In this document: piece by piece, positions 2,157 to 6,782 of the stretch | How the letters are laid out: each line of letters starts with the position of its first letter | How positions within the stretch are numbered: the first letter of the stretch is position 1 | Source of the DNA: Minisyncoccota bacterium | Lineage (GTDB): Bacteria; Patescibacteriota; Minisyncoccia; Phycocordibacterales; UBA2100 | Direction: 5' to 3' | DNA: 21,188 bases | Assembly (NCBI GenBank): GCA_016763615.1 | Contig: JAESTJ010000017.1 | Coordinates: 1-21,188, forward strand | Translations under genes and position numbers: made by a program | Notes under the pieces: generated by a model | Told to the model about the DNA's origin: nothing | Seen by the model: only the letters and a program-made list of their open reading frames with translations | Database searches by the model: none

Positions 2157-2230
2157 GGGCCAGTAGCTCAGTTGGCTAGAGCGCCTCATTTGCACTGAGG
2201 AGGCCGGGGGTTCGAGTCCTCTCTGGTCCA
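2157..2230 (+). tRNA. tRNA-Ala (anticodon TGC)
   Basis: The full cloverleaf can be folded by eye. The acceptor stem is GGGCCAG / CTGGTCC, the D stem GCTC / GAGC, and the anticodon stem CCTCA / TGAGG around the loop TTTGCAC (anticodon TGC, alanine). The T stem is GGGGG / CCTCT around TTCGAGT, with discriminator A. The third acceptor pair is G-T, matching the G3-U70 identity element of tRNA-Ala. CCA is not encoded at this 3' end (CAT follows). CCA is present after a second copy of the 3' end 200 bp downstream. Any primary transcript would run on into the structured element that follows. Confidence 0.95.
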
Positions 2231-2433
2231 CATAGACAAGCAAAAGTCGATGCATCGCATCGGCTTTTGCTTTGTCTTGGACTCCAGAGAGGACTCGAAA
2301 AGAGTCGCTGGTACACAAGACGAGCGGAGCGAGGGCTTGTCAGCGACGGCAGGCCTGTGTCACTTAATAGAATTGAGTCCGTAGGACGAAAATTATATTT
2401 AGTATAGATAGGCGAGTCCTCTCTGGTCCACCA
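2213..2433 (+). repeat. tRNA-3'-end-bounded structured element, copy 1
   Basis: The last 18 nt of tRNA-Ala (2213-2230, cgagtcctctctggtcca) recur exactly at 2413-2430, 200 bp away, and the second copy is followed by CCA (2431-2433). In between are a long hairpin (arms 2234-2252 and 2258-2277), an inverted copy of 14 nt of the tRNA end (2284-2297), and a second stem (GTCGCTG 2304-2310 with CAGCGAC 2341-2347). There is no ORF with plausible coding character. This accounts for the gene-free stretch 2231-2479. The arrangement resembles integration at a tRNA 3' end, but the insert is far too small to carry an integrase. Confidence 0.8.
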
Positions 2434-2479: not shown

Positions 2480-2938
2480 ATGGTTGAAATAAACTTAGAA
2501 GAACTTCTAAACGAATATCTAAAGGATAATCGGCTAATGCAACTCGCCACGGTTGCGGATGGCTATCCGTGGTTGTGCAATCTATACTTTGTACATGACG
2601 ACGACAATAATATTTATTGGACATCAGCTAAAATACGCCGTCACTCTAAGGAACTTAAGGCTGATTCAAGAGTTGCCGCAACAATACTTCGTGACGAAGA
2701 TAAGAAACAAGCTTTGCAAATAACTGGTGATGCGTTTGAGGTACCTCTTAAGGACGTTGAGTATGTAGACAAACTCTATGCATCTAAGTTTGGTGATAAA
2801 TCAAGAGCAGCTGAGGTTTTGGCCAATGACCCAGACGGTAGAGCTTTCTGGGTTTTGAAACCTAAACTAATCGAATTTTGGGATGAAGTGAACTTTCCAG
2901 ACGCTCACAAGCAAACAATAGTAAATATTGGTAACTAA
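2480..2938 (+). CDS. Pyridoxamine 5'-phosphate oxidase-like FMN split-barrel protein
   Basis: This 152-residue protein has the PNPOx-like flavin split-barrel pattern. An N-terminal helix is followed by LMQLATVADGYPWLCNLYFVHDD, a strand with IYWTSAKIRRHSKEL (the usual phosphate and FMN contact region), VAATILRDEDKKQALQITGDAFEV, and a C-terminal segment ending in VLKPKLIEFWDE. Members bind FMN, F420 or heme, and some reduce or oxidise small molecules; the substrate cannot be read from sequence. It lies just after the tRNA-bounded element, with the EEP-family gene 12 nt downstream, so both may form one accessory unit. Expression is probably leaderless from TAATAT at 2468-2473. Confidence 0.8.
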   Translation: MVEINLEELLNEYLKDNRLMQLATVADGYPWLCNLYFVHDDDNNIYWTSAKIRRHSKELKADSRVAATILRDEDKKQALQITGDAFEVPLKDVEYVDKLYASKFGDKSRAAEVLANDPDGRAFWVLKPKLIEFWDEVNFPDAHKQTIVNIGN

Positions 2939-2950
2939 AATATTCCAAAT

Positions 2951-3697
2951 ATGAAAATTCTGCAGTGGAACGTTTGGTATAAAGAGAATATTGATAATAT
3001 TTTAGGTTTACTTAAGGAAGTTGATGCAGATGTAATATGCCTACAGGAGATTACAGATGACAGTGACTACAACACAGGCATAAATACTGCCACATATCTT
3101 GCCGATAAACTCGAATATAATTTATTTTATAAAGACGCACAAACAAATACAGTTGACGGACTGAGTAAGGGTTTGGGTAATGCAATACTTAGCAAATCTC
3201 CAATTGTCTCTTCTAATTTTTTCCACATTCAAGAGCCTACAAACCCCGAAGCAAAGGACGTAGATTACTCAAAAGAGGGGCGTCTCTACAGCGAAATAAC
3301 TGTGTCAGTGAATAATAGGGAGTTCACCATAGGAACAACTCACATGTCGTACACATATGCATTTCAAGAAACTTCAGCAAAAAGGGACGAAACTGACAAT
3401 TTATTAAAAATTCTCAAAGGTAAGACTTCAAATTTCTTAATTACTGGTGATTTTAATGTTCTACCAGATTCGTATACAGTAAACGAAATACAAAAGATGT
3501 TCAAAAACGTAGGTCCGCCCATAAATGAAAACACATGGACAACAAAACCATTCTCATATAATGGCTTTGAGGCAAAAACACTTGACTGGAGGTTGGATTA
3601 TTGTTTCGCCACAGCTGATGTAGAAGTAATCTCAGCACAGATACTTAAGACTGAATTTTCCGATCATCTACCAATTTTGATAGAACTTAAAGATTAA
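2951..3697 (+). CDS. Endonuclease/exonuclease/phosphatase (EEP) family protein
   Basis: The 248-residue protein has the EEP fold signatures: the start MKILQWNVW with Asn 7, LQEIT with metal-binding Glu 33, GTTHMSYTY with the catalytic-type His, GDFNVLPDS with the Asp/Asn pair, LDWRLDYCFA, and the terminal SDHLPILIEL with the active-site Asp-His. The length suits a single-domain member. These enzymes are Mg-dependent phosphodiesterases or phosphatases acting on DNA, RNA, phospholipid or nucleotide substrates, and which applies here is unknown. There is no signal peptide, so it is cytoplasmic. It follows the flavin-protein gene by 12 nt and probably shares its transcript, although TAAAAT at 2936-2941 could serve as its own -10. 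Confidence 0.85.
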   Translation: MKILQWNVWYKENIDNILGLLKEVDADVICLQEITDDSDYNTGINTATYLADKLEYNLFYKDAQTNTVDGLSKGLGNAILSKSPIVSSNFFHIQEPTNPEAKDVDYSKEGRLYSEITVSVNNREFTIGTTHMSYTYAFQETSAKRDETDNLLKILKGKTSNFLITGDFNVLPDSYTVNEIQKMFKNVGPPINENTWTTKPFSYNGFEAKTLDWRLDYCFATADVEVISAQILKTEFSDHLPILIELKD

Positions 3698-3716: not shown

Positions 3717-3782
3717 ACGTACCAATATTCTCATATATAACAGGTACTAACGTTTTCCCTGCATCTGCGATTGTCTCCACAT
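3713..3782. repeat. Direct repeat R1, left flank of the metal-resistance operon
   Basis: About 70 bp that recurs at 6790-6858 with only a few differences. Both begin taatacgtaccaatattctc, share GTACC...GGTAC inner inverted arms and acaggtactaa, and end in cgattgtctccacat. Each copy lies directly after the last gene of a transcription unit. In R1 the end TTGTCT-ccacat-AGACAA makes a short inverted repeat with the start of element copy 2. Confidence 0.85.
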
Positions 3783-3963
3783 AGACAAGCAAAAGTCGAT
3801 GCATCGCATCGGCTTTTTGCTTTGTCTTGGACTCCAGAGAGAACTCGAAAAGAGACGCTGGTACACAAGACGAGCGGAGAGAGGGCTTGTCAGCGACGGC
3901 GGGGCTGCGTCACTTAATATTTTTGCTAAAATATTTAGTAAAGGCAACCGAGTCCTCTCTGGT
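3777..3963. repeat. tRNA-3'-end-bounded structured element, copy 2
   Basis: Near-identical to copy 1 from ccacatagacaagc through cagcgacggc and on to cacttaata, with a few substitutions and one extra T in the hairpin. It ends in the same tRNA-Ala tail sequence (cgagtcctctctggt, 3949-3963), but there is no tRNA gene here. The inner inverted copy of the tRNA tail is kept with one change (near 3836-3847). The right-hand part (tttagtaaaggcaaccgagt, 3934-3953) matches the relic at 9532-9551 with one mismatch. With R1 and the hairpin at 4012-4028 it fills the gene-free stretch 3698-4118. Confidence 0.8.
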
Positions 3964-4083: not shown

Positions 4084-4118
4084 TTGCGTCAAAAATCAAT
4101 ATGAATTATAATTCATAT
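4084..4118 (+). promoter_or_regulatory. Promoter with overlapping ArsR-type operator
   Basis: TTGCGT (4084-4089), a 17-bp spacer and TATAAT (4107-4112) form a near-consensus promoter. The -10 box lies inside a perfect 20-bp palindrome, atatgaattataattcatat (4099-4118). The palindrome resembles the inverted repeats bound by ArsR/SmtB regulators. The predicted transcription start falls at about 4119, the second ATG of the regulator ORF, so a bound repressor would block the -10 and the transcript would be leaderless. Confidence 0.75.
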
Positions 4119-4430
4119 ATGAAAAATATTGACTTGGATAAACCACACAAATTTTTCTTTGAGACTCTGGGCAATCAGGCGCGCTGGGATATTATTCATC
4201 TTCTCCAAAAAAAGTCTCACAGGGTTACTGATATTGCAAAAGAATTAGATTACGAACAAAGTCTAGTATCTCATCATTTGAAGCGCCTTGGAGCGTGTGG
4301 GTTTGTTACGTTTACAGAAAATGGGAACGAACGTATTTACAACCTTAACAAGGAGACCATAGAACCAATTATAACGCTTATGGAAAAGCATATAAATAAG
4401 TTTTGTAAAAAACTATGTTGCAAAACGTAG
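4119..4430 (+). CDS. ArsR/SmtB-family winged-helix metal-responsive repressor
   Basis: Counted from ATG 4119 the protein has 103 residues. It shows the ArsR winged helix: FFETLGNQARWDIIHLLQ, then SHRVTDIAKELDYEQSLVSHHLKRL as the recognition helix-turn-helix, then the wing FVTFTENGNERIYNL. The tail HINKFCKKLCC holds three cysteines that could bind a soft metal. An ATG also exists at 4101, but it lies inside the palindromic operator and upstream of the predicted transcription start, so 4119 is preferred. It heads an operon of MerC/MerF-like genes and probably represses it until a thiophilic metal binds. Mercury operons classically use MerR, so an ArsR-type controller is a departure. The actual inducer is not known. 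Confidence 0.85.
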   Translation: MKNIDLDKPHKFFFETLGNQARWDIIHLLQKKSHRVTDIAKELDYEQSLVSHHLKRLGACGFVTFTENGNERIYNLNKETIEPIITLMEKHINKFCKKLCCKT

Positions 4431-4460
4431 TGTTAAAAAATTATTAAGAATAATATTAGT

Positions 4461-5060
4461 ATGAAAAATATAACAATAGCAATCGTTGCATTAGTGATAG
4501 GTATAATCGGCACAGTATTAGTCACCAATAGTCCTAAAGAATCAGCACCCACGATAGCACAGGAAAGCGAAATTTCTTCGGAGAACCCATATGAACGCCT
4601 TCCAGTTATTGATGGTTATTATGAGGGTGAAAAAGTGTGGTTTATCCACACCGATGTATCAGATGAGGGCATGGCAAAACGATTAACAAACATGGTCGGG
4701 TTCAATACTGTGCACGTACCGAAATTAACTGATGTTGATGCGTCAAAACTTAGTAAGCTCTATGTCTTTACAAACGGGCTCAAACAAGTTGGTGTTGCAC
4801 CATGGGAGGGTGGACCATTTGGATATCAAATTGATATTTTAGATTCAATTCCAGGAGACTCGACATACACATCACTTCGAAATCCGAACCTTGTAACATG
4901 GAGTGACGACGCGACTCCGCGCCTTCTAACTTCAATGGAGGAACTTTTAAAAGCCAAGAAAAATGGAGAACTTTTCATCAAGCCAACAGATATCGTCGTG
5001 AACGTTCCTATGATGAAGTGGCCGGGTAAATATTTAGGAGGAGAAAGTAAAATTAGATAG
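4461..5060 (+). CDS. Membrane-anchored DUF7482-like protein of the metal operon
   Basis: This 199-residue protein has an N-terminal hydrophobic segment (about residues 4-22) that should act as a signal anchor, placing the rest outside the membrane. The body has YYEGEKVWFIHTDVSD, MVGFNTVHVP, LYVFTNG, GPFGYQIDILDSIPGD, NLVTW and a C-terminal VVNVPMMKWPGG-type ending. I recognise this layout from proteins annotated as DUF7482, recalled rather than searched. No enzymatic motif is evident and there are no cysteines, so it is not a Cys-based metal binder. TAATAT at 4451-4456 lies 4 nt before the ATG. The MerC-like gene follows after 4 nt. Function unknown; a periplasm-side accessory role is only a guess from context. 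Confidence 0.65.
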   Translation: MKNITIAIVALVIGIIGTVLVTNSPKESAPTIAQESEISSENPYERLPVIDGYYEGEKVWFIHTDVSDEGMAKRLTNMVGFNTVHVPKLTDVDASKLSKLYVFTNGLKQVGVAPWEGGPFGYQIDILDSIPGDSTYTSLRNPNLVTWSDDATPRLLTSMEELLKAKKNGELFIKPTDIVVNVPMMKWPGKYLGGESKIR

Positions 5061-5064
5061 TCAT

Positions 5065-5460
5065 ATGAAAACAACAATTTGGAAAAAACTATTAACTCAA
5101 CTATCTCCAATCTTAGGAGCAGGTGCAGTAGGGGTGTGTCCGTTTTGTTGGGTTGGTTCAGCCTCACTGCTAACATATCTCGGGTTAGGGGCATTGATAT
5201 CTGCGTGGTTGTGGGTGGTAGCTATTTTTGTTTTACTCGGCTTAGTCGGGTTTGCTTTCGATTACAAAGCACACAAAAATATACGTCCTTTGGCTCTGCT
5301 AATAGTAGGTGCCCTTTTATTGTATGTGGGCAGGTATGTATTAGTCGGTACCGGTTTTGGTTATTGGCCAATTTGGGGTAGTGGTGCTGCACTTATTGTG
5401 ACAGCAGTTGTACTTAATAAAAAAGAATTTAAAAAGACAAAAGTTGATGAAAAAAACTAA
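5065..5460 (+). CDS. MerC-like membrane protein
   Basis: A 131-residue, very hydrophobic protein with about four membrane spans. The CPFCW motif (C25 and C28) lies in the first span, as in MerC/MerT-type mercury transporters, where a membrane cysteine pair receives Hg(II) and passes it inward. The later part is hydrophobic with the lysine-rich tail KKEFKKTKVDEKN, expected in the cytoplasm. It overlaps the merF start by 14 nt, so the two are translationally linked. The family call rests on the cysteine placement, length and partner gene. Transport of mercury is inferred from family and context; another soft metal or metalloid is possible. Confidence 0.7.
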   Translation: MKTTIWKKLLTQLSPILGAGAVGVCPFCWVGSASLLTYLGLGALISAWLWVVAIFVLLGLVGFAFDYKAHKNIRPLALLIVGALLLYVGRYVLVGTGFGYWPIWGSGAALIVTAVVLNKKEFKKTKVDEKN

Positions 5461-5698
5461 ACCCTCAAAAAAAGGACTCTACACTGCTGCTACAGGAACA
5501 GTGATTGTAGCTCTATGCTGCTTCACCCCTATCCTTGTGGTTACAGTTGGAATAGTTGGTTTGAGTGCCCTAACACCGTATCTTGATTATGTACTCTATC
5601 CTGCGCTCGCAGTCATGCTGGTGGTAACCTACTTAGCGTATAAAAAATGGAAACAAGGGTGCAATAACAATGAAATAGAAGAAAAAGATAATATATAA
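5447..5698 (+). CDS. merF: MerF-family mercury transport protein
   Basis: MerF is a small inner-membrane protein that moves Hg(II) into the cytoplasm. The 83-residue product from ATG 5447 has two spans and the diagnostic ALCCFTPIL segment (C24, C25) followed by VGIVGLSALTPYLDYVLYPAL, very close to the known MerF pattern and length (about 80). Known MerF has a second cysteine pair near the C-terminus; here only one cysteine (C72) is seen, so the hand-off step may differ. An earlier in-frame start at 5408 would add 13 residues read inside the upstream gene and is unlikely. No merA reductase or merP is found in this window. Confidence 0.85.
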   Translation: MKKTKPSKKGLYTAATGTVIVALCCFTPILVVTVGIVGLSALTPYLDYVLYPALAVMLVVTYLAYKKWKQGCNNNEIEEKDNI

Positions 5699-5709
5699 AT
5701 ATATAACAT

Positions 5710-5897
5710 ATGAACAATGCAAACCTAATTTGCCCAAAATGTGGGAACAACCAAGAGACAGATATACCTCAAGATAAATGCCTGGCATCGTATCAGTGTG
5801 AAAAATGTAAAGAAAAATATCAGTCCCAAAAGAAAGTAAAAATTGTTGTGTCATCTGTGAGTATTCAGACACCAAGTGCCCTGTTGCGAACAAATAA
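5710..5897 (+). pseudogene. GDCCxC-type zinc-ribbon protein, frameshifted
   Basis: From ATG 5710 the first 44 residues form a zinc ribbon: C8-x2-C11, then DKC (C24), then C30-x2-C33. This matches the small mercury-associated GDCCxC family. The open frame then leaves the family pattern. Adding one A to the A5 run at 5838-5842 restores NCCVICEYSDTKCPVANK and a stop at 5895-5897, giving a 62-residue protein with nine cysteines and the expected CCxxC signature and length. As written, the frame instead runs on into the next gene as a 232-residue fusion. The lesion may be real, a sequencing error in a homopolymer, or a site of slippage. The family name is recalled, not searched. Confidence 0.75.
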
Positions 5898-5907
5898 GAG
5901 AGGTAGT

Positions 5908-6408
5908 ATGAAATCAATCTACTTAATAGTTTGGTTTGGTGTAAAGGAAACGCTGACACACAAAGGTTACCGTGTTTTGTTTTTACTTGCGCTTGTTGTG
6001 ATGTTCATACTCTTTACTCTTATTCCAGCAATTTCTGTTCCAGGAAACGATTTTTTTTACCAACTTACTCTTTTCTCCCCTCTCGACTTCCTTGTAACAG
6101 TCCTGCTTTCTTTTACGTATGCTCTTTTCGTAACAATGCAGATATATTCGATGAAAAACAAGCGGAAAATTACTGACGTGGGAACAACTGTCGGAGGAGG
6201 AATTGGAGCTTTGGTTGCGGGCGTTGCAGGCACTGCTTTCTGTGCTTCGTGTTTAGCCCCTTTGTTTGCACTGTTTGGAATAGGGTTCGGAGGAGTTCTC
6301 TTTGTTCTTGAATACCGTCTATATTTCGTAATTGGTATTCTAGTACTTATGATTGTTGCCATTTATCTAACTGCACGTAAAATACAGAGAGTTTGTGAAA
6401 ATTGTTGA
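5908..6408 (+). CDS. Membrane protein with intramembrane and C-terminal CxxC pairs
   Basis: This 166-residue protein starts at ATG 5908, preceded by a Shine-Dalgarno-like GAGAGG (5898-5903) 4 nt upstream; the same frame is also open from 5710 because of the upstream frameshift. Hydrophobic spans lie at about 23-45, 57-80, 93-125 and 135-153. A CASC motif (C112, C115) sits within a glycine-rich span, and the protein ends CENC (C163, C166). A membrane cysteine pair plus a terminal pair resembles the general plan of Mer transporters, but I cannot place it in a named family. Its position between GDCCxC-type and rhodanese genes supports a metal or thiol role, which is inference. Confidence 0.7.
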   Translation: MKSIYLIVWFGVKETLTHKGYRVLFLLALVVMFILFTLIPAISVPGNDFFYQLTLFSPLDFLVTVLLSFTYALFVTMQIYSMKNKRKITDVGTTVGGGIGALVAGVAGTAFCASCLAPLFALFGIGFGGVLFVLEYRLYFVIGILVLMIVAIYLTARKIQRVCENC

Positions 6409-6440
6409 ACTTATTAACATTACCAATTAATTATTACATT

Positions 6441-6782
6441 ATGTTGAATACGATAACAACCGAAGAAGTGAGGAAGAAAATAGACGCAGGCGAGGATTTT
6501 ATTCTTACAGACGTACTAGCTGCTAACAGCTTTGAAGCTAGACATATCCCGAACGCAAAAAGTGTGCCGTATAGTACAAACTTTCTCGAGGATTTTGAAA
6601 AAACAATAAACGCTGCGAAGGACGCAGATATTGTTGTCTACTGTGCGAGTAGCGGATGTCAGTTGAGTGTTCTAGCTGCCAATCTGCTAGTTGATGCAGG
6701 ATATAGTAATGTTTCCCATTTTGTAGATGGTCTAGCAGGCTGGATGCAAGCAGGAGAAAAATTTGAAGGTGAAGCGGTCTAA
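6441..6782 (+). CDS. Single-domain rhodanese-like sulfurtransferase
   Basis: The 113-residue protein has the rhodanese fold markers: an N-terminal ITTEEVRKKI helix, ILTDVLAANSFEARHIPNAKSVPY, and the active-site loop YCASSGCQLS with C68 as the likely persulfide cysteine and a second cysteine (C73) nearby. It ends LVDAGYSNVSHFVDGLAGWMQAG, the usual C-terminal motif. Rhodaneses carry sulfane sulfur on the active cysteine and pass it to thiols or cyanide. ATG 6441 gives the normal length; a further in-frame ATG at 6402 would overlap the upstream gene. It is the last gene of the metal operon and ends just before direct repeat R2. Confidence 0.85.
   Translation: MLNTITTEEVRKKIDAGEDFILTDVLAANSFEARHIPNAKSVPYSTNFLEDFEKTINAAKDADIVVYCASSGCQLSVLAANLLVDAGYSNVSHFVDGLAGWMQAGEKFEGEAV

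Follow-up and report, generated by a model that had tools for sequence, protein, structure and literature searches.

Why does a tRNA gene carry a second, exact copy of its own 3' end a short distance downstream? The question is raised by a tRNA-Ala(TGC) gene in the window (the whole stretch of DNA analysed here, 21,188 nucleotides from a Minisyncoccota genome that is 62% complete), where CGAGTCCTCTCTGGTCCAC at 2213-2231 recurs at 2413-2431 as an exact 19-nt repeat with a start-to-start spacing of 200 bp. An exact 19-mer at this spacing is not a product of chance, and the duplication described in the first-pass annotation is confirmed, here with a length of 19 nt. That annotation had also suggested that the 200 bp could be a non-autonomous mobile element, which the results below support; movement we infer from the distribution of the copies. 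More specifically, we lean slightly towards a non-autonomous element resembling an integron cassette, which would have been inserted into the T loop by way of a folded single strand.

The duplicated tRNA-Ala end and the surrounding window

The tRNA gene, the 200-bp unit (unit 1), a second copy of the site and the genes between them are arranged as follows, all on the + strand:

2157..2231, +: tRNA-Ala(TGC), with T-loop C56 at 2213 and R57 at 2214
2214-2231, +: proximal tRNA 3' half (to C74), part of tRNA-Ala(TGC)
2214..2413, +: unit 1, 200 bp, non-coding, in the order tRNA 3' half, hairpin H, inverted copy, core
2232..2283, +: hairpin H, which resembles a terminator; its stem pairs 2234-2253 with 2257-2277
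2284..2299, +: IR, an inverted copy of the tRNA 3' end that is complementary to 2211-2226 at 16/16 positions
2297..2415, +: conserved structured core, a match to model R1 at 101.6 bits (this core belonged to the training set of the model)
2304..2347, +: hairpin B of a three-way junction, in the fold of the unit 1 core
2353..2413, +: hairpin C, apical loop C(GTA)G, in the same fold
2413..2433, +: distal copy of the tRNA-Ala 3' end, CCA included, probably the original 3' end
2480..2938, +: PNPOx_N family protein gene, between the two sites
2951..3697, +: Exo_endo_phos family protein gene, between the two sites
3776..3963, +: second site copy, 85% identical to unit 1, with no adjoining tRNA; TCCAC, hairpin H, inverted copy 3834-3849, core 3847-3951, truncated tRNA end 3949-3963

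The region 2210-2435 folds far more stably than shuffled sequence (z -10.0 with DNA parameters, z -8.9 with RNA parameters), and 0 of 200 shuffles equalled it in either case. This fold, the inverted copy and the second site are additions to what the first-pass annotation described. At this tRNA-Ala, CCA (2431-2433) continues the distal copy only, as the first-pass annotation had pointed out; as a general rule, however, the observation fails, since in the 46 units with both copies comparable a CCA is found behind 3 of the proximal and 4 of the distal copies. No PF00589 gene adjoins the site array in the window. Further downstream (4101-6782), a row of genes for an ArsR-type regulator, a DUF7482 protein, a protein with weak likeness to MerC, a MerF transport protein and a rhodanese is, judged by its encoded products, a predicted mercury- or thiol-related cluster.

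A family of units in related genomes

Used as a DNA query, unit 1 gave partial matches in 23 of 146 relatives, nearly all adjoining tRNA genes of varied isotypes. The general unit comprises a tRNA 3' half, a terminator-like hairpin, a partial copy of that 3' half in inverted orientation and a structured core of 100-130 nt; other units whose distal repeat matches at 15/17 positions or better measure 160-242 bp (median 192, n = 53). A covariance model was built from 16 aligned cores and then run on the 146 relatives, scoring at most 25 candidates per genome, and on 379 genomes, scoring at most 9, so that all site counts are minima. This search, of the kind that the first-pass annotation had proposed, revealed a unit that is multi-copy across relatives, with core matches in at least 67 of the 146. 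Among the matches listed, five genomes of the window's genus hold at least 12-18 sites each and the other three hold 1, 1 and 0. The G006 genome, a single contig of 687,746 bases, yielded 21 distinct matches at E <=1, of which 19 lie 45-135 bp past a same-strand tRNA or tmRNA gene, occupying 19 of the 39 such genes.

The family appears largely confined to one part of the bacterial tree. At least 8 of the 379 genomes in a phylum-wide sample have matches, 7 of them in the same order and 1, a weak match (30 bits), outside it. The hairpin B pattern was found at 79 loci in genome contigs; several of these are named just 'bacterium', and those with a named lineage are of Patescibacteria type (Kaiser-, Yonath-, Nomura-, Campbellbacteria and others), with a Bacteroides record (21.8 bits) as the lone exception. 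Viral contigs gave 0 matches to three exact patterns, a search whose reach stops short of diverged copies. No published description of such elements was found among the titles and opening lines of abstracts searched, a body of text in which few subscription journals are represented.

Two observations concern the variety of units. At L226 and L015, tRNA-Leu units have another core between the inverted and direct copies, and these may represent additional families of this type. The trailers of L043, L068, L199 and L211, belonging to different tRNAs and mostly from Kaiserbacteria records, have in their hairpin H a common AAAAATAANGAG ... GCGACTATATTTTT; because this is common to different tRNAs, hairpin H may in these cases belong to the mobile unit.

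Sites lie behind tRNA genes and carry direct and inverted copies of them

To describe placement, we pooled 58 of 77 model-match rows (the rest being the same places), 22 sites from G006 and 114 from the hairpin B search, which after removal of identical sites left 170 distinct sites. Counting same-strand neighbours only, 130 of the 160 sites with at least 250 bp of upstream sequence have a tRNA within 450 bp, at a modal distance of 61-67 bp, and the tRNAs at pooled sites represent 20 isotypes. At least one of the 30 sites without a tRNA by this test is the G006 tmRNA, which is too long for it.

Repeats were analysed at 105 of the 170 sites, the other 65 being left out for want of a same-strand tRNA within 140 bp or of a T loop that could be recognised. 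The distal repeat matches its own tRNA at 13.1/17 positions on average, as against 8.1/17 for other isotypes; it is a perfect 17/17 at 44 of the 105 sites, a level never reached by the other-isotype pairings, which stayed at or below 15/17 in 200 draws per site. Across sites, distal repeats fall into two classes, near perfect and lost. The inverted copy is likewise closer to its own tRNA (11.3) than to other isotypes (7.7), mainly at positions 57-64 and down to background level by 73 (103 sites, 2 of the 105 lacking downstream bases). At the 44 sites with a decayed distal repeat, the better partner of the inverted copy is the proximal copy in 25 and the distal copy in 7, with no difference between them in 12. 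The inverted copy is only partly faithful to the tRNA of its site: a different tRNA fits better at 43 of the 105 sites, and where the distal repeat is at least 16/17 (n = 49) the best fit is own tRNA in 20, another in 21 and a tie in 8. One tRNA-Leu(taa) site, L223, has an inverted copy that fits tRNA-Cys of the same genome at 15.5 and its own tRNA at 8.0, with a distal repeat that is Leu (15/17); this inverted copy is possibly a memory of a donor tRNA.

Empty sites and the displaced 3' end

A relative of the same genus, G003, has 0 core-model matches among the matches listed, and all 30 of the tRNAs examined there (39 found) are without an inverted copy; the single direct match, of 9 nt at one tRNA, is located in the next tRNA gene. 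These empty sites support an insertion into the tRNA 3' end, as first proposed, and they exclude a normal conserved tRNA trailer; the insertion reading thus passes both of the refuting conditions set in the first-pass annotation. A BLAST alignment among close relatives contained no clean empty site at base resolution. As a separate observation, an OLD-like AAA_15/TOPRIM gene lies 3' of the empty G003 tRNA-Ala (L105, 1416-3143), and tRNA-Ala seems to be a hot spot for defence genes whether or not sites are present.

The first-pass annotation further held that the element rebuilds the tRNA end and moves the original downstream. Among the 49 units whose distal repeat is good, 43 have a strong hairpin behind the proximal copy and 27 have one behind the distal copy; the corresponding figures are 17 of 30 for native G003 tRNA trailers and 26 of 96 for windows 300 bp further on. 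Hairpins are thus as frequent behind distal copies as behind native tRNAs, so that the distal copy has in most cases the appearance of the original 3' end, and on average the data support its being the displaced one. This part of the claim stands as an average, but the tRNA-Thr locus differs. With the same downstream gene, this locus is empty in G003, holds a full unit in G000 and a unit without core in G006; hairpin H occupies the position of the native terminator of the empty genome, and nothing resembling a terminator comes after the distal copy. The arrangement of this one locus suggests an insertion that may have occurred after the native terminator.

The tRNA-Thr locus is in keeping with an alternative in which the unit arrived by transposition and duplicated about 18 bp of its target (57-74), and in which the inverted copy travelled with it and was later corrected by hairpin template switching. 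Distal repeats that are near perfect or lost agree with this, as does L223 with its Cys-like inverted copy beside a Leu repeat. The native-rate terminators and the occasional CCA behind the distal copy, on the other hand, fit displacement of a whole 3' half, and no transposase was found. We regard such a transposition as unlikely, and continue to prefer a cassette-like insertion.

Probable movement between tRNAs, and cargo

Nearly identical cores occur at different tRNAs, with different flanks. In genomes with at least two sites (84 sites in all), the core nearest to a given one belongs to another tRNA of the same genome in 28 (shuffled mean 2.9, maximum 9), to the same tRNA of another genome in 4 (shuffled mean 2.1), to neither in 51 and to both in 1. 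As nearest cores are mostly not those of the same tRNA across genomes, cores do not follow the tRNA.

Units also occur in tandem (L012/L032), and cargo lies between two sites in two cases, namely the two genes in the window and a Gabija system in G123. At the latter locus (L036, G123:C1:12600-17600), a tRNA-Ala(TGC) is broken at the T loop and two site copies flank 3.8 kb encoding Gabija GajA and GajB (PADLOC E 1.8e-153 and 3.5e-184). No intact tRNA-Ala was seen among the 36 distinct tRNAs of 30 loci, nor at 4 further places, of this assembly, which is 89% complete; excision may restore the gene, or else a copy is missing from the assembly. Most sites examined in G006 are without cargo. In that genome, a stretch of about 8.7 kb that encodes a large serine recombinase lies between two copies of the tRNA-Gln(CTG) 3' half (L102/L103, G006:C1:656236-664986) and ends in one of the family's sites.

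Genes of another type were seen near tRNAs. At L029 (1802-2524), where sites are present, a LAGLIDADG_3 protein is encoded between tRNA-Met and tRNA-Asp, and small ORFs that by eye resemble other homing-type nucleases adjoin tRNAs in G006.

The predicted fold of the core favours one strand

Compensatory changes were found in 36 of 36 core pairs across 114 matches, counted in a model-fitted alignment, which leans towards the structure. Paired cells make up 91.1% of this alignment as against 69.6% when shuffled, and the covariation score is 0.42, compared with 0.12 after shuffling and no more than 0.063 when the partners were slid. The top strand folds more stably in 147 or 149 of 152 sites. C(GNA)G apical loops account for about a quarter of those on the tRNA-sense strand (79/306 with RNA parameters, 72/353 with DNA parameters) and for none on the opposite strand (0/308 and 0/350, respectively). 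According to the available portion of PMC4686876, G-C-closed GNA and GNNA loops are extraordinarily stable in DNA. Loops limited to one strand of the predicted folds point to a folded single strand of DNA.

The covarying structure could also serve an RNA, all the more as the folded strand is the tRNA-sense one, that is, the would-be transcript strand. The core would then be a cis-acting 3' extension of the tRNA transcript, involved in processing, in regulation or as a decoy, and duplicated by gene conversion. Many tRNAs of one genome have the core, and the inverted copy still matches the tRNA T arm after decay of the distal repeat, both of which are in keeping with such a role. Typical RNA tetraloops are scarce, though (GNRA 4/306, UNCG 0), and G-U pairs have a raw share of only 4.1% of pairs in the cores alone. 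The same genus includes G003, which is without any core; two sites lie away from tRNAs with cargo between them; and at the gathering score Rfam 15 matched only tRNA and tmRNA in the loci given, so that no known RNA family accounts for the core. We think a cis-acting RNA improbable, and return to the folded DNA strand of a cassette-like element.

Which enzyme could act on the sites?

The first-pass annotation had looked to a tyrosine integrase. The unit itself carries none, and PF00589 proteins are present in 138 of the 146 relatives, mostly as a single copy and with or without sites, site-rich G006 and empty G003 alike having one each; a dedicated tyrosine integrase was therefore dropped. Reverse transcriptase was set aside as well, being found in only 1 of 8 genomes of the genus.

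Within the genus, the Y1 transposase family PF01797 is present in 5/5 site-rich and 0/3 site-poor genomes, which raised the prospect of a REP/IS200-like element that is mobilised by a HUH transposase of the Y1 type and guided to its target by the inverted copy. The hairpins, the loops of single-strand type and the guide-like 8-nt match of the inverted copy are all compatible with this. Yet the split vanishes over the 146 relatives (47/67 with sites, 54/79 without; p 0.86), and G012, G081, G090 and G107 have at least 5 sites each with neither Y1 nor a large serine recombinase. Nor would the long target repeat be expected, as HUH transposition is not known to produce one. The Y1 enzyme is thus rejected as a candidate, and an element of this type is very unlikely.

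It is just as improbable that the units are relics (solo att sites) of tRNA-targeting islands, since lost, of a large serine recombinase or another integrase: the 8.7-kb stretch of G006, with such a recombinase and a tRNA-Gln(CTG) 3' half at both ends, is what such an island would look like, but PF07508 shows no positive correlation over the 146 relatives, being rarer with sites (38/67 vs 59/79, p 0.024) and missing from site-rich G004 and G005, and the short double-stranded sites that large serine recombinases use would leave the covarying folds unexplained.

For a cassette-like element, our first guess at the acting enzyme, and a doubtful one, is a host Xer-type tyrosine recombinase, a candidate because it is the sole recombinase tested that is nearly universal.

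A model for insertion into the T loop

In the model we favour, insertion would take place in the tRNA T loop, between C56 and R57, and the insert would supply a replacement tRNA 3' half and the terminator hairpin H, leaving the tRNA functional. The tRNA-sense strand of the site would fold into a short outer stem, formed by the inverted copy and the tRNA 3' half, with hairpins B and C, and this attC-like single strand would recombine with the double-stranded, attI-like T loop. Downstream, the displaced 3' half of the tRNA would persist as a direct repeat, in many cases together with the terminator that belonged to it. Recombination between attC-like and attI-like partners would make units stackable and able to carry genes, and may also allow their excision. 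We counted against this cassette reading that one core is combined with many different tRNA 3' ends, that the inverted copy often fits some other tRNA at least as well as the one at its site, that none of the enzymes tested correlates with sites, that close relatives yielded no clean empty site at base resolution, and that the tRNA-Thr locus differs.

More tentatively, and somewhat less likely than the element itself, an order of Patescibacteria may possess integron-like cassettes with no dedicated integrase, for which nearly any tRNA T loop would be the insertion site and the folded tRNA-sense strand the recombination site; most cassettes would consist of just a replacement tRNA 3' half sparing the host tRNA, and some would bear defence genes such as Gabija. 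If this is right, the tRNA genes of a large uncultivated group with reduced genomes serve as a dispersed docking platform for very small elements of folded DNA, linking tRNA integration with the single-stranded recombination of integrons, and this could explain defence-gene exchange in cells with few integrases. The family also offers a clean test bed, in which a single structure is combined with twenty target tRNAs, with relatives both empty and filled, and with a loop signature specific to one strand.

Comparison with known systems

Like REP elements with their RAYT transposases, the units are short, non-autonomous, multi-copy and built of hairpins; REP elements are not tied to tRNAs, and the Y1 enzyme lacks any correlation here. 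The E. coli tyrT repeats (rtT RNA) are about 180 bp long and each contain 19 bp of tRNA 3' end, and are similar in that the repeat unit contains a tRNA 3' end. They are confined to one operon and one tRNA, unlike the present family, which has no Rfam match; no papers on them were found in our literature search. With tRNA-targeting islands and satellites the family shares insertion at tRNA 3' ends, a tRNA rebuilt by the element and a displaced original as direct repeat. It differs in its size of about 200 bp, twenty isotypes with one common core, the inverted copy and the conserved fold, and the non-coding units lack the integrase gene of their own by which tyrosine-integrase elements are defined.

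A folded single strand borrowing a housekeeping enzyme has a precedent in the attP of CTX phage, which in the passages available of PMC4246890 and PMC3089051 can use the host's Xer recombinase. CTX, however, targets dif, and no link to a phage or to dif was seen here.

The closest parallel is with integrons. As attC is described in the accessible text of PMC2727003, from which the features compared were taken, it shares with our sites a fold on one strand, a short outer inverted pair, a bulged base and a variable terminal structure; the units, like cassettes in that source, lie in one orientation, are stacked and in some cases bear genes. Our sites have two hairpins in a three-way junction where attC is a simple stem, the target is a T loop, most units carry no gene, and no IntI or integron platform was seen. 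The R box pair of attC is GTTRRRY and its inverse. Such boxes are absent from our sites, in which the outer stem is tRNA-derived and, by reading, consists of GANTCGAA and C|GANTCC. Since the R-box sequence and IntI are missing, we do not file the family as an integron. The layout of a gene-carrying cassette, with the site closing the unit, fits both G123 and the window.
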